Source: a virus
Reading direction: 5' to 3' (one strand)
Length of the DNA: 33,592 bases
Virus record (IMG/VR): IMGVR_UViG_3300043397_000005
Span: 1-33,592 of that record
A model generated the notes under the pieces. It ran no database searches and had not been told where the DNA came from. It saw only the letters and a program-made list of their open reading frames with translations. Numbering within the stretch: the first letter of the stretch is position 1; the number at the start of each line of letters is the position of its first letter. Shown piece by piece: positions 2,737-30,985 of this stretch. The position numbers were made by a program, and so were the translations under genes.

Positions 2737-3437
2737 AGAAAACTTGTCTGCTCTTGCTTTGGCGGTTCTATGAACATATCCACCTGTTTTGATGCTTGCT
2801 CTATGCGTTTACAAGCAATCTCAAAATATTTTGGTTCACGCTCTATGCCTATGAACTTGCGCCCCATCTGGATAGCAGCTACGCCTGTTGTGCCGCTTCC
2901 CATGAACGGGTCAATCACAGTCATTCCTTCATTAGTGCTTGCCCTTATAAGGCGTTCCATTAACGGAATTGGCTTTGCTGTTGGGTGATATTCTTTAGGC
3001 TCAGTAGGCAATCTAAAAACTGGTGAAGCGCAATGCTCGTTAAATGTTGCGCCAGATTCTTTCCCAAAAACACAAGTTTCAATGCTAGAAAGCCATAAAT
3101 GCTGCCCGTTCATTGGGCTTGGATTGGTCTTTTCCCAAATACACAATCTGCTAGACATTCCCAAATTAACCATAGCTGACCTCAATTCTGAAATTTGCTC
3201 TGTTCCACACCATACATAAACACTTGAACCATGTTTAGAAAGCAATGAAGCAAGTTCAACAAGGTCAAAATCAGCTATGTCAGCAACTCCACGGTCAAGA
3301 TTTCGTAAACCTGAGTTTTTTCTATTGACTTCTCCATAAGGCGGGTCAGTAATCACCGCATCAACCTTGTCTAAGGTCGGCAAAATGTCCATGCAGTCGC
3401 CCAAATACAACGTTGCGTCACCGATTACGACTTTCAT
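2733..3437 (-). CDS. DNA methyltransferase (N6-adenine/N4-cytosine type)
   Basis: A 234-residue methyltransferase. It has the catalytic motif DPPYG at residues 31-35, the AdoMet-binding motif DPFMGSGTTG at 176-185, and the connecting HPTAKPIPLMERL helix at 151-163. Catalytic motif before the AdoMet-binding motif is the beta-class order. The length is typical of orphan phage methyltransferases, and no cognate restriction enzyme is seen. It is coupled by ATGA to the replication gene upstream. Likely roles are protection from host restriction or marking replicated DNA; the recognition site cannot be read from sequence. A second, ParB-fused methyltransferase lies at 29783-30985. Confidence 0.9.
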   Translation of the reverse strand: MKVVIGDATLYLGDCMDILPTLDKVDAVITDPPYGEVNRKNSGLRNLDRGVADIADFDLVELASLLSKHGSSVYVWCGTEQISELRSAMVNLGMSSRLCIWEKTNPSPMNGQHLWLSSIETCVFGKESGATFNEHCASPVFRLPTEPKEYHPTAKPIPLMERLIRASTNEGMTVIDPFMGSGTTGVAAIQMGRKFIGIEREPKYFEIACKRIEQASKQVDMFIEPPKQEQTSFL

Positions 3438-4261
3438 GCTTTGCCTTTCAAAAGTTCAGCCATCTTTGCTCGGATGTTTTCAGGGATTGGAGCGGCTTTC
3501 TTGCTGTCTTCCTCAATCTTCCGCAACGCAGCGTCTTGGTTTGGCGGTGGCGGTGTAGTGATACCCGCTACATCGTATTTGTTGGCAAATGGCTGGCGCT
3601 CGTTAATTTCAAAAACATCCTGCCAACTACTTGTAATTGATTTCTCAAGAACAGCCTGAATGTTTTGCCCATTCGCTTTAAATTTTGCCAATTTATCAAT
3701 AAGCAACTTCATGGCGTAATCAGTAGGTGGCTTCTTGATTCGCTTACGCATAGCCAAAAACGCTTCCCATGTTTCCAATGGCATCCAATCTGGCAAAACA
3801 AGAGCGTCAGCGACCTTTTCTTTTTTAGATGTAGATGAAGAAGAAGAAGAAGATGTAGATGAAGGGGTTGGTTTTTGCTTATCCTCAAGGTTAACCTTAC
3901 CCTTATCCATCAAGGCAGGGTTTCCACCCTTAGAACCACCAGCAGCCCTTATCTGGCGTAGGTTTTCATCACGAATCATGCGCTTTGAGTAAATCACACC
4001 TTCATCATTTGTTTCGTAAACACCAGCTTGTGAAAGTTCCAAAAGCCAATCAGCAACAACCTCTGCACTATCCCCAACCATACGGGCAAGGTTTGAAGGA
4101 AGGATAACCTTATCTCCAACCTTTAAATGTCCGTAAGGTGAACCTTCGTGCATGAAACAAATCATGTCCATCCACAAACCACGCGCACCTGTTGAACAAG
4201 AGCGCAAAGCAGTGTCACGCAACCAATCGCTTGGGTAAAACTGAAATGATGGGCGTTTCAT
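3434..4261 (-). CDS. Replication-initiator-like protein (phage O / DUF1376-like)
   Basis: A 275-residue protein whose N-terminus (PSFQFYPSDWLRDTALRSC, then GARGLWMDMICFMH) is typical of phage replication proteins with a winged-helix DNA-binding region. A low-complexity linker of about 12 Ser/Thr residues, encoded by a TCT-rich microsatellite near 3831-3862, separates it from a C-terminal domain (LPDWMPLETWEAFLAMR, SWQDVFEIN), probably for partner contact. It most likely recognises the origin and recruits the host helicase, but no helicase loader is seen nearby. It lies just below the structured leader at 4450-4558 and is coupled to both neighbours. Confidence 0.75.
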   Translation of the reverse strand: MKRPSFQFYPSDWLRDTALRSCSTGARGLWMDMICFMHEGSPYGHLKVGDKVILPSNLARMVGDSAEVVADWLLELSQAGVYETNDEGVIYSKRMIRDENLRQIRAAGGSKGGNPALMDKGKVNLEDKQKPTPSSTSSSSSSSTSKKEKVADALVLPDWMPLETWEAFLAMRKRIKKPPTDYAMKLLIDKLAKFKANGQNIQAVLEKSITSSWQDVFEINERQPFANKYDVAGITTPPPPNQDAALRKIEEDSKKAAPIPENIRAKMAELLKGKA

Positions 4262-4440
4262 TCAACCCCCAATGCTTCACGAACAATGTGTTTTTCTTGA
4301 TTAAAAATTGTCTCAAACTGATGAACAGACAACCAAATGACAACTTCACCACCATCTGGTGTTTTTTGATTGAATGAAATCCATCCGTCCCCATGACCAA
4401 CAATCTCAGTTTCTAGTTCTGCCTTCAAAAATATTGACAT
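4258..4440 (-). CDS. First gene after the structured leader, 60-residue hypothetical
   Basis: Begins MSIFLKAELETEIVGHGDGW and ends HIVREALGVE; small, beta-rich and slightly acidic. It has a clear GGAG ribosome binding site (4449-4446) five bases from the ATG, immediately after the U-tract of the upstream hairpin, and ATGA coupling to the replication protein. Its initiation region would be directly controlled by the leader structure. Function unknown. Confidence 0.7.
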   Translation of the reverse strand: MSIFLKAELETEIVGHGDGWISFNQKTPDGGEVVIWLSVHQFETIFNQEKHIVREALGVE

Positions 4441-4449
4441 ACAAACTCC

Positions 4450-4499
4450 AAAAAAAAAACCCTTGACAACCTGTGGTACTAGCACAAGTCATCAAGGGT
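4450..4499 (-). terminator. Intrinsic terminator/attenuator before the replication genes
   Basis: The 17-pair hairpin 4459-4499 is followed by ten U residues (4459-4450) in the leftward RNA, the classical form of a rho-independent terminator. It ends one base before the GGAG of the gene starting at 4440, so no space remains for another promoter. It must be read through (attenuation) for the replication genes to be expressed from upstream. Confidence 0.75.
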
Positions 4500-4558
4500 C
4501 AGCCATTGAAGGCTTAGATGTATTCGTATCTAGTACATACGACACCTAAACCTTCTGG
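4450..4558 (-). ncRNA. Tandem-hairpin leader with complementary heptaloops (candidate kissing-loop RNA)
   Basis: In the leftward transcript, hairpin 1 (4508-4555, extendable to 4558) has loop GUACUAG (4536-4530). Hairpin 2 (4459-4499) has loop CUAGUAC (4482-4476). The loops are perfect 7-base complements. Hairpin 2 has 17 continuous pairs, 14 Watson-Crick and 3 G-U. Hairpin 1 has 10, 4 and 5 pairs with a 3-base bulge. All non-Watson-Crick pairs are G-U in the minus RNA but A-C mismatches on the plus strand, so the element is built for the leftward RNA. A TATAAT at 4564-4569 would start transcription at about 4557, the foot of hairpin 1. No known riboswitch or sRNA family is recognised. Confidence 0.6.
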
Positions 4559-4563
4559 AAAAA

Positions 4564-4592
4564 ATTATACCTCAGTTAAACCAAAGCCAAAA
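4564..4592 (-). promoter_or_regulatory. Candidate promoter for the leader RNA
   Basis: A perfect -10 hexamer TATAAT lies at 4569-4564, just after the stop of the small membrane protein gene. The -35 region at 17-base spacing (TTTTGG, 4592-4587) is a poor match, so a helper protein or weak activity is likely. The predicted start falls at the foot of hairpin 1. Confidence 0.5.
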
Positions 4593-4724
4593 GCCATGCA
4601 AAATGCCAATGGGAAAGAAGATTGCGCCAGCTACCAAGAAGCCCCAAAATCCTTGTGCAAAGCAAGTAAAGATGTGGGTAAGCCAAGCCAGCGTGACTGT
4701 GATGCCAATAAACCAGCCCATCAT
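4572..4724 (-). CDS. Small membrane protein, 50 residues
   Basis: Translation from ATGATG at 4724 gives a hydrophobic protein (MMGWFIGITVTLAWLTHIFTC, then GFLVAGAIFFPIGILHGFWL) with two likely membrane helices and a short loop. Its ATG overlaps the TGA of the MazG-like gene (ATGA). It is the last gene before the leader, and its stop lies three bases upstream of the TATAAT. Similar 50-residue two-helix proteins occur in early regions of many phages. Function unknown; not placed with the lysis genes, so a holin role is unlikely. Confidence 0.7.
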   Translation of the reverse strand: MMGWFIGITVTLAWLTHIFTCFAQGFWGFLVAGAIFFPIGILHGFWLWFN

Positions 4725-5026
4725 GCTTCCTTCACAAAGATGCCATCAGCGTTCAGATAACCCTTGCGGTCTTTGATTTCTTGGTAAGCGCCTTCAAAGC
4801 AAGTCACCAAGTCCAAGTCAGCAATTGCACAGCCCATGATTAACGTTACCAGAATGTCGCCATAGGCATCAGCCATAGCAGCGCGGTCGTTGTTGCGGAT
4901 AGCGTCAATCAGCTCGTCAAGTTCTTCTTGCGTCTTGATTGCTTGGGCAGCGGGTGTGCTGTTTTGCACAATGCCACGGGCTTCACCCCATTGCACAACC
5001 TTCATTTCTATTTCTGAATAGCTCAT
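4721..5026 (-). CDS. MazG-like nucleotide pyrophosphohydrolase
   Basis: A 101-residue all-helical protein with the MazG-type metal-binding pattern: QEELDEL near residue 33, then ADAYGDILVTLI, ending AYQEIKDRKGYLNADGIFVKE. This arrangement is common in phage MazG-like proteins. The family hydrolyses (d)NTPs to monophosphates; phage versions are proposed to adjust nucleotide pools or (p)ppGpp signalling. ATGA overlaps couple it to the Cro-like gene and to the membrane protein. The length suits a single-domain member. Confidence 0.8.
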   Translation of the reverse strand: MSYSEIEMKVVQWGEARGIVQNSTPAAQAIKTQEELDELIDAIRNNDRAAMADAYGDILVTLIMGCAIADLDLVTCFEGAYQEIKDRKGYLNADGIFVKEA

Positions 5027-5184
5027 TTTTGTTCCTTAAACCACTTGGGTTTTAAAAGTTTTAATTGCCAGATTCGTGCTTTCGGCACTTCTTTCCATGC
5101 CGCAACCGCTGGCTGGCTGATACCAAGCAGTTTGGCAAGCTCAGTCTGTGAGCCTGCAAGTTTGATAAGCTGTTCTTTGTTCAT
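5023..5184 (-). CDS. cro: Cro-like helix-turn-helix repressor
   Basis: A 53-residue protein with a compact helix-turn-helix: SQTELAKLLGISQPAVAAW (residues 12-30), then KEVPKARIWQLKLLK. This matches the P22-Cro/YdaS type, which binds short palindromes as a dimer. It is the first gene of the leftward operon and is coupled by ATGA to the MazG-like gene. No Shine-Dalgarno lies upstream, and a -10 match places the transcript start at or within about 5 bases of the ATG. A GTTGC-N6-GCAAC palindrome overlapping its promoter suggests autorepression. No CI partner was found. Confidence 0.8.
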   Translation of the reverse strand: MNKEQLIKLAGSQTELAKLLGISQPAVAAWKEVPKARIWQLKLLKPKWFKEQK

Positions 5185-5190
5185 GCGTGA

Positions 5191-5221
5191 AATGTACCAT
5201 AAGCTAGGTTGTTGCAGTCAA
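5191..5221 (-). promoter_or_regulatory. Promoter of the leftward early operon
   Basis: In the minus strand TTGACT (5221-5216, 5/6 to consensus) and TACATT (5196-5191, 4/6) are 19 bases apart. This spacing is long, but the predicted start is at about 5184, the A of the cro ATG. An alternative pair is TTGCTT (5225-5220) with TATGGT (5201-5196), 18-base spacing, starting about 5 bases upstream of the ATG. Confidence 0.5.
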
Positions 5222-5226
5222 GCAAC
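5211..5226. promoter_or_regulatory. Candidate Cro operator
   Basis: GTTGC-AGTCAA-GCAAC is a perfect inverted repeat with 5-base arms and a 6-base centre. The centre is the -35 hexamer of the leftward promoter, so repressor bound here would block RNA polymerase. I found one copy in the 140-base divergent region. Confidence 0.55.
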
Positions 5227-5250
5227 ATTTACAAAATATTTTTTGCTTCC

Positions 5251-5280
5251 TTGCTAAATCTGCATAATCTCGGTTATAGT
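5251..5280 (+). promoter_or_regulatory. Promoter of the rightward early operon
   Basis: TTGCTA (5251-5256, 4/6) and TATAGT (5275-5280, 5/6) are 18 bases apart. An AT-rich block including the palindrome AAAATATTTT (5233-5242) lies upstream in UP-element position. The predicted start near 5287 leaves a leader of about 38 bases before the first gene, which has a TAGGA ribosome binding site. Confidence 0.55.
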
Positions 5281-5324
5281 TCACACATCCCGCAGCGCAA
5301 CGCAAACGGTACTTAGGAAACAAA

Positions 5325-5525
5325 ATGAAACTTAACGACACCACCCGCACATACCCCCGCACCATGCAAGAAGCCTACCCAAACACCTATGACGCTATTG
5401 AAGCGCGTCAGCGTTGGGAATGGTTAGAAGGCCACCAATCAGACGCAGCAGCACAAGCCGAATTCTGGGTTTACATCGCCTGCGCCTTTGCCGCTGGTTT
5501 TGTAGTCTCTCAACTTTGGGGTTAA
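5325..5525 (+). CDS. Small C-terminally anchored membrane protein, 66 residues
   Basis: A hydrophilic N-terminus (MKLNDTTRTYPRTMQEAYPN) is followed by one hydrophobic helix (WVYIACAFAAGFVVSQLW) at residues 48-65. It is the first gene of the rightward operon, two bases before erf, with a TAGGA ribosome binding site. It is likely an inner-membrane tail-anchored protein. Function unknown; similar small proteins are frequent in this position in phages. Confidence 0.75.
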   Translation: MKLNDTTRTYPRTMQEAYPNTYDAIEARQRWEWLEGHQSDAAAQAEFWVYIACAFAAGFVVSQLWG

Positions 5526-29782: not shown

Positions 29783-30985
29783 TTAAACCGTTTCGGTTAC
29801 TTCTGTCAACAACTCAGCTTTTTTGCCTGTGAAGTCTTCCCATCGCTTGACGATTACATCGCAATACTTAGGGTCTAGCTCCATTACACGAGCCACACGA
29901 CCGTTCTTTTCGGCTGCAATCATTGTTGTGCCGCTTCCACCAAACGAATCTAGCACTATGTCGCCGCCCTTTGTGTTGTTGAGTAGTTGATACTCAAACA
30001 AAGCCACGGGCTTCATGGTTGGGTGTTCACCGTTGCGCGAAGGCTTCTCAAACTCCAAAATAGTCGTTTGTTTGCGGTCTGTTGCCCAAAGGTGGCCTGC
30101 GCCTTCTTTCCACCCATACAAGCAAGGCTCGTGCTTCCAGTGATAGTCTTGGCGACCCATAACCATGCTGGACTTCTTCCAAATAAGGCACTGGCGTACT
30201 TTCCAGCCTGCGTCTTGAGCTGCGCCACGGAAGTTGTAGCCTTCTGAATCGGCATGCCAAATATAAAAAACAGCGCCAGCTTTCATTACGGCATCGGCGG
30301 CAACGTAAGCATCGCGCAAGAACTGACGGAACTGATCATCGCCCATGCTGTCGTTCTGGATCGTCAGGCTGTCTTTTGTTTTGCCTTCATAGGCTACGTT
30401 GTAAGGCGGGTCTGTGAGCCACATATCCACAGCTTGACCGTCACAAAGGCGCTCTAAATGTTCAATACTGGTGCTGTCTCCGCACATAAGGCGGTGTTTG
30501 CCAAGTTTGTATATATCGCCAGGCTTTGTTTTGGGTTCAGAGGGCAGCGGTGGGGCTTCGTCTTCATCTGTAAGTCCAGCGTTCAATTCCACGGGGTTTA
30601 GCGCCTCAATCTCGTCAAGGCTAAAACCCGTCAATTCCAAATCAAAGCCAAGCTCTGCCAACTGGTCAAATTCCAGTTTTAGCATTTCATTGTCCCACCC
30701 TGCGTTTAACGCCAGGCGGTTGTCGGCAATGATGTAAGCCTTCTTTTGAGCTTCGGTCAGGTCTTTGAGTTCAATTGTTGGGACTTCCTTGTGGCCTAAC
30801 TTACGCGCAGCCATGAGGCGACCGTGGCCAGCAATAATGCCGTTGTCACCATCCACCAATATTGGGTTAGTCCAGCCAAATTCCTTGATGCTTGCCGCAA
30901 TCTGTGCCACCTGTTCGTCAGAGTGGGTGCGGCTGTTTTTCACATAAGGGATTAGTTCTGTGACCAGTTTAGTTGTGATTTTCAT
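29783..30985 (-). CDS. ParB-like domain fused to DNA methyltransferase
   Basis: A 400-residue two-domain protein. Residues 1-130 form a ParB/Sulfiredoxin-type domain (LIPYVKNSRTHSDEQVAQIA, IIAGHGRLMAARKLG), often fused to phage methyltransferases. Residues 155-395 are a beta-class N6-adenine/N4-cytosine methyltransferase with DPPYN (192-196) and DSFGGSGTT (346-354). HPTMKPVALFEYQL is the usual connecting helix. It lies before the terminase genes and is coupled by ATGA to the 48-residue gene upstream. Likely methylates phage DNA before or during packaging; target unknown. Confidence 0.92.
   Translation of the reverse strand: MKITTKLVTELIPYVKNSRTHSDEQVAQIAASIKEFGWTNPILVDGDNGIIAGHGRLMAARKLGHKEVPTIELKDLTEAQKKAYIIADNRLALNAGWDNEMLKLEFDQLAELGFDLELTGFSLDEIEALNPVELNAGLTDEDEAPPLPSEPKTKPGDIYKLGKHRLMCGDSTSIEHLERLCDGQAVDMWLTDPPYNVAYEGKTKDSLTIQNDSMGDDQFRQFLRDAYVAADAVMKAGAVFYIWHADSEGYNFRGAAQDAGWKVRQCLIWKKSSMVMGRQDYHWKHEPCLYGWKEGAGHLWATDRKQTTILEFEKPSRNGEHPTMKPVALFEYQLLNNTKGGDIVLDSFGGSGTTMIAAEKNGRVARVMELDPKYCDVIVKRWEDFTGKKAELLTEVTETV

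Follow-up and report, generated by a model that had tools for sequence, protein, structure and literature searches.

Two tandem hairpins with complementary, co-varying loops ahead of phage replication genes: a candidate transcription attenuator and small RNA

The question raised by this locus is what two neighbouring hairpins with exactly complementary 7-base loops are doing in a non-coding gap ahead of the replication genes of a phage. The window, by which we mean the whole stretch of DNA that was analysed, comprises the 33,592 bases of a virus record in IMG/VR, and the element is read leftward, on its minus strand.

The element and the phage that carries it

The gap is of 130 nt, with an ORF for a 50-aa membrane protein on one side and one for a 60-aa protein on the other. 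Reading leftward it holds TATAAT, hairpin 1, a 9-nt linker, hairpin 2, ten U residues, GGAG and ATG, and from the sequence we predict a promoter-to-terminator unit of about 105 nt (Table 1).

Table 1. Coordinates of the element and neighbouring genes in the window
Feature	Position	Strand	Comment
-10 box TATAAT	4564..4569	-	From sequence; predicted RNA start at about 4557-4556, the foot of hairpin 1
Hairpin 1	4508..4555	-	Lower stem of 13-14 bp, 3-nt 3' bulge, upper stem of 5-6 bp, 7-nt loop
Loop 1 GUACUAG	4530..4536	-	Exact reverse complement of loop 2
3-nt bulge (AAU in window)	4521..4524	-	Between lower and upper stem of hairpin 1; kept in relatives
Linker AAUGGCUGA	4499..4507	-	GGCUGA invariant
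Hairpin 2	4459..4499	-	7-nt loop; predicted intrinsic-terminator stem, from fold and terminator scan
Loop 2 CUAGUAC	4476..4482	-	Exact reverse complement of loop 1
U10 tract	4450..4459	-	Of predicted terminator; from sequence
Shine-Dalgarno GGAG	4446..4449	-	Immediately 3' of U tract; from sequence
60-aa ORF	4258..4440	-	First gene 3' of element; in several relatives the element is followed by a homologue; unmatched in PHROG and Pfam
Replication initiation (O-like) protein gene	3434..4261	-	phrog_678, E 4e-18
50-aa membrane ORF	4572..4724	-	5' of element; phrog_7319, E 1e-12; stop codon abuts -10 box

The hairpins and their exactly complementary loops had been described in an earlier note made from the sequence, and RNAfold gives precisely these two hairpins for the minus strand (-52.2 kcal/mol, z -6.43, with none of 200 shuffles equal), the last A of the linker pairing with the tail's first U. 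The plus strand folds more weakly (-33.9). In a scan for terminators hairpin 2 scores best within the first 16 kb of the window, and it has in its sequence what is looked for in an intrinsic terminator, a stem of 18 pairs with the U10 tract directly adjoining. The predicted promoter has a weak -35, about TTTGGC at a spacing of 16, and a generic consensus promoter scan of the window did not flag the -10 box.

The earlier note treated the element as a leader with kissing loops. The loops were correctly seen, but the U10 terminator, the TATAAT box and the 3-nt bulge of hairpin 1 were overlooked, and with a predicted intrinsic terminator and promoter of its own the element is better read as a promoter-hairpin-terminator unit, which may act as an attenuator of the operon and also give rise to a small RNA. 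It was also said to lie directly before the replication protein, which is the case in three relatives (L048, L412 and L403), but in the window the 60-aa ORF intervenes.

The window has genes for a P22-like portal and a large terminase, and its early genes are in lambdoid-like order, with Erf and an exonuclease rightward, and a Cro-like gene, a MazG-like gene, the element, the O-like initiator, a methyltransferase and NinB leftward. The Cro-like ORF (5023-5413) opposes the rightward Erf gene at a distance of about 230 bp, with no cI and no space for a cI gene beside cro, and this spacing suggests a virulent lambdoid-like phage. No integrase gene was detected in any of 20 phage contigs, several of them perhaps incomplete, whereas all 14 control genomes scored positive. 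Given the lack of integrase in the contigs and of space for cI beside cro in the window, lysogenic immunity is unlikely. We did not identify an N-like gene in these phages, and the site is of interest as a control point for replication genes in phages with no identified N-type antiterminator.

Elsewhere in the window there is a minus-strand gene (29783-30985) with a ParB N-terminal domain fused to an N6/N4 DNA methylase domain, and there are two diverged direct-repeat pairs, one of 63 nt at 1823-2061 (83%, spacing 176) and one of 45 nt at 1535-2003 (89%, spacing 424), both apparently duplicated small-ORF segments.

Relatives of the element and the pairing of its loops

Relatives were sought with the protein of the 50-aa ORF, with the initiator protein and with DNA patterns of the stems only, each pattern having N at the loop positions and being blind to the loop letters. 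More than 40 distinct elements were recovered from other phages, one of them in the deposited phage genome MW202710, and 41 rows were aligned. The carriers are freshwater phages, and the element heads their DNA-replication genes.

Both stems are maintained by compensatory change. Among the 41 relatives 97-99% of cells are paired in hairpin 1, with double compensatory changes in 10 of 19 pairs, and 98% in hairpin 2, with double changes in 11 of 17 pairs, making 98.1% paired and 21 of 36 pairs with double changes for the stems together. The earlier note had seen in the window that the non-Watson-Crick stem pairs are G-U in the leftward RNA and A-C in the opposite one, and had concluded that selection acts on the leftward transcript. 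This is borne out by the relatives, as stem cells of the leftward RNA include 181 G-U and only 9 A-C, and we conclude that the leftward RNA is the functional one. We found no counter-transcribed RNA of the ColE1 or pT181 type: stem polarity, fold energies and the -10 box all point leftward, although a weak opposite promoter may remain.

In every one of the 41 relatives the two loops match exactly, over all 7 bp, by Watson-Crick pairing; there are 11 different loop pairs and no G-U. All 287 loop-pair cells are standard and Watson-Crick, 54 of them with double changes, and one of the seven loop base pairs shows all four Watson-Crick types. Covariation of the loops is 0.492, compared with 0.092 after shuffling and at most 0.057 in slid registers. 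By parsimony, on a weakly resolved tree from which the loop columns were left out, each loop has changed type at least 17 times. L048, for example, has GUACAAG and CUUGUAC, a joint change relative to the window, and L402 and L420 are nearly identical outside the hairpin 1 cap and loop 2, where the letters of the two loops have changed in concert. Loops that varied independently in relatives had been named in advance as the finding that would count against pairing, and what we see is joint change throughout.

Two further samples bear on this. A free scan of 3.9 Mb of loci gave 2,214 terminator-like hairpins with 7-nt loops, of which 36 have an upstream hairpin with an exactly reverse-complementary loop, and 34 of the 36 fall in the twin-hairpin family; three control relations gave 0, 1 and 4 cases. 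Among 51 loci picked by the replication protein alone the element is present in six, and the loops are complementary in all six. Complementary and co-evolving loops are the mark of a kissing-loop RNA, and on this comparative sequence evidence it is close to certain that the pairing is real and selected. Loop covariation is compatible with pairing in cis and in trans, and does not separate the two.

Several other features are conserved. The bulge of hairpin 1, mostly GAU or AAU, is 3 nt long in 37 of 41 relatives and 4 nt in the other four. A 9-nt linker separates the hairpins in 38 of the 41, and GGCUGA and a U-rich tract are present in all 41. The conservation of UUUAG/CUAAG and GGCUGA is over and above that needed for pairing, which hints at contact with a protein or with polymerase and is not required by the attenuator model presented below. 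A -10-like hexamer ends 5-9 nt (mostly 7-9) 5' of hairpin 1 in 43 relatives, although for L453 the scan chose a poorer hexamer with TATAGT visible, and from this position transcription should begin at the base of hairpin 1. The next start codon is 14-19 nt past the matched terminator in 43 of 45 elements (in one it is at 3 nt and in one none was found). No promoter fits between terminator and start codon, and the downstream genes must therefore depend on read-through. Most of these genes are for replication initiators or primosomal proteins, of five kinds and with several unrelated N-terminal types, for HNH endonucleases or for small proteins, and a helicase-like protein is also encoded.

A covariance model of the family (R1) found a second, strongly diverged copy in phage G388 at 64.6 bits. 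This copy (L475:100-253, on the contig of L422) has rewritten stems and the loops AUAAGAG/CUCUUAU, a twelfth loop pair, and keeps the promoter, the bulge, the 7-nt loops, the U tract and the ATG. It precedes a gene resembling that for a phage regulatory or antirepressor protein. Two copies are also present on G004 and on G378 (L406), and in each of the three contigs the loop pair differs between the copies; those of G004 are about 37 kb apart on a 76-kb contig, possibly two joined phage genomes. We considered the differing loops as a means of avoiding cross-talk in phages with two copies and rejected the idea, as three of three differing has a chance expectation of about 0.6 from the loop frequencies.

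The earlier note knew of no described family with this layout, and our searches agree. The window gave only chance-level matches in Rfam at gathering thresholds, and for the element also with E up to 5 (PyrR, for example, at 17.7 against 54 bits), and we found no such family in Rfam 15 or in the open-access papers searched, the subscription literature being mostly outside the scope of the search. Blastn of the window element against phages and plasmids gave only partial matches of 28 and 41 nt, the plasmid match having no flanking hairpin and being taken as chance. None of the six matches in a pattern scan of genome contigs is the element, and the family model had no match in 369 Gammaproteobacteria genomes under strict filters, in a set that included no positive control. 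The element looks like an RNA switch of phage replication genes, or a small RNA serving them, that has not been described before, and for a phage RNA family the evidence of a tertiary contact between loops is unusually clean, with natural compensatory swaps even among near-identical RNAs.

Possible functions of the element

We suggest, with a probability of about one half, that the element is a transcription attenuator controlled by the kissing loops, and that termination at it also yields a small RNA. The self-contained unit at the head of the replication operon would consist of a sigma70-type promoter, hairpin 1 and terminator hairpin 2, with the replication genes expressed only by those polymerases that read through hairpin 2. 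The 7-nt loops would kiss with full Watson-Crick complementarity, and we infer that hairpin 2 would terminate transcription in vivo and that the kiss would decide how often polymerase terminates and how often it reads through. Acting in cis, hairpin 1 may capture the loop of the emerging terminator hairpin, and since a fully zipped hairpin 2 and an intramolecular kiss would strain each other, the kiss would favour read-through. Terminated transcripts would accumulate as a small RNA bearing both loops, and this may act in trans by kissing nascent leaders, or may dimerise, giving concentration-dependent feedback on transcription of the replication genes.

In a coarse rigid-helix model 0.7-1.2% of hinge orientations permitted an intramolecular kiss while hairpin 2 was complete, as against 0% without the bulge and 33% with the bottom 4 bp of hairpin 2 open. 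The modelling suggests that the kiss and full closure of the terminator may oppose each other in cis, and that a two-molecule double kiss would be unstrained.

The comparison with ColE1 made in the earlier note is valid for loop geometry, as the kissing loops of ColE1 RNA I and RNA II are of 7 nt and complementary over their whole length. However ColE1 has two RNAs from opposite strands, control of an RNA primer and no terminator loop, whereas here a single RNA carries both loops, and the geometry is all that is shared. The attenuators of the pT181 type resemble the element in having a 5' leader of a rep gene, an intrinsic terminator, kissing as the specificity step and an interior loop or bulge, and these plasmid regulators need the interior loops in the hairpin (PMC4878617). 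In pT181 the partner is antisense RNA transcribed from the other strand, whereas both of our loops are in the sense leader and one is the terminator loop; nor did we find an antiterminator stem in the element. If our reading is correct this would be an antisense-free form of attenuation, useful for RNA biology and for synthetic circuits, and the natural orthogonal loop pairs are a ready set for asking whether a kissing loop gates intrinsic termination.

The alternative that survives best, although we think it unlikely, is a dimeric or trans-acting small RNA, in which two molecules pair reciprocally, hairpin 1 with hairpin 2 (14 bp in total), the genes receive a default low level of read-through, and the kiss serves for dimerisation or for recognition between molecules, for example in copy-number control or superinfection exclusion. 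A promoter and a terminator are predicted within the element itself, and judging from the lengths an antiparallel dimer with two kisses would need no bend, only short linkers. There is also precedent, as the phage RNAs GOLLD and ROOL homo-oligomerise via conserved kissing loops (PMC12286853). However the conserved 3-nt bulge and the nearly fixed 9-nt linker would be unnecessary for a dimer, and the different loop pairs on the three two-copy contigs (the L406 pair, G004 and G388), which fit this alternative, are expected by chance (about 0.6).

Control as in phage P4 is a further alternative and an improbable one. In P4 premature termination blocks the replication genes when the CI RNA pairs with seqA and seqC, both located in the same untranslated leader (PMC4825925). 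Here the small RNA would bind the nascent leader in trans through its loops and promote termination before the replication genes, as an RNA-based immunity or timing switch with the loop sequence giving specificity. Among phage systems P4 CI (C4) and IsrK come closest as examples of a replication operon controlled through premature termination with a read-through small RNA, sharing with the element the leader position before replication genes, the in-leader complementarity and a small RNA running from promoter to terminator (PMC4825925), and loop types that differ between close relatives such as L402 and L420 would suit such specificity. The improbability of lysogenic immunity in these integrase-lacking phages counts against it, as does the lack of any sequence or structural match: the Rfam models RF01695 (C4) and RF01394 (isrK) both match P4, used as positive control, and neither matches the window at gathering or with E up to 5.

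We give still less weight to an RNA like put of HK022, in which a two-hairpin RNA would bind RNA polymerase in cis and make it resistant to hairpin 2 and downstream terminators. The resemblance lies only in two tandem hairpins in the early transcript of a lambdoid phage (PMC9378689), here at its 5' end, and with it go the lambdoid-like gene order (Erf, Cro, O-like, NinB), the N-like gene not having been identified, and the conserved GGCUGA and UUUAG/CUAAG, which could contact polymerase. Against this, put is about 70 nt with two stem-loops, and neither loop-loop pairing nor a terminator is described for it (PMC9378689); model R1 has no match in HK022, and put is not among the Rfam families that match HK022. 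Finally it is scarcely credible that this is ordinary insulation, the terminator of one operon and the promoter of the next with functionless loop complementarity, as the signals are indeed those of a plain operon boundary but come in the order promoter then terminator and not the reverse, and joint change of the loops in all relatives nearly refutes it.

Other leader RNAs in the same position

The int-alpA RNA (RF02996) is found in this position too, likewise immediately downstream of a -10 box, but has a different structure, and it has no match in the window in Rfam at gathering or with E up to 5. At 80 related loci (L001-L080) examined for the slot behind phrog_7319 there are 30 int-alpA-like leaders, two twin-hairpin elements, two leaders of a second undescribed kind that we call type B, four of a third, type C, and 42 with no leader. 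The count for int-alpA is by sequence signature, with two confirmed by Rfam (L004 and L021). These int-alpA-like leaders precede replication genes, outside the int/alpA context from which the family is named.

In type B the 5' hairpin has the loop UUGGNNG, which pairs with CNNCCAA within a long terminator hairpin, the loop versions being UUGGCGG, UUGGCAG, UUGGUGG and UUGGUCG. This match was part of the search pattern, but a second pseudoknot of 6-7 bp was not, and it varies jointly in most members (CGUAGU/ACUACG, UCGGUAA/UUACCGA, AAGGUA/UACCUU). Type B leaders precede replication genes, and have no Rfam match in the members scanned. They were found at L022, L055, L057, L066, L069, L088, L100, L109, L116, L288, L313, L464 (9221, minus), L508, L513, L521, L522 and L529.

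The twin-hairpin element and type B are unrelated leaders that share a principle, which speaks for a shared role in the gating of these operons. We tentatively raise the possibility of a 'kiss-or-terminate' class of RNA switch, in which a 7-bp kiss between a 5' hairpin and the terminator loop would be obligatory, strain between the kiss and the completed stem would control read-through, the terminated RNA would feed back in trans, and the unrelated type B leader would work on the same principle.

Type C has no Rfam match in L066, L069 or L078. It has the form GAAAGCGGAUGCU ... AGACGCAGCGAGUA, and is found just behind the phrog_7319 ORF in L066, L069, L073 and L078.
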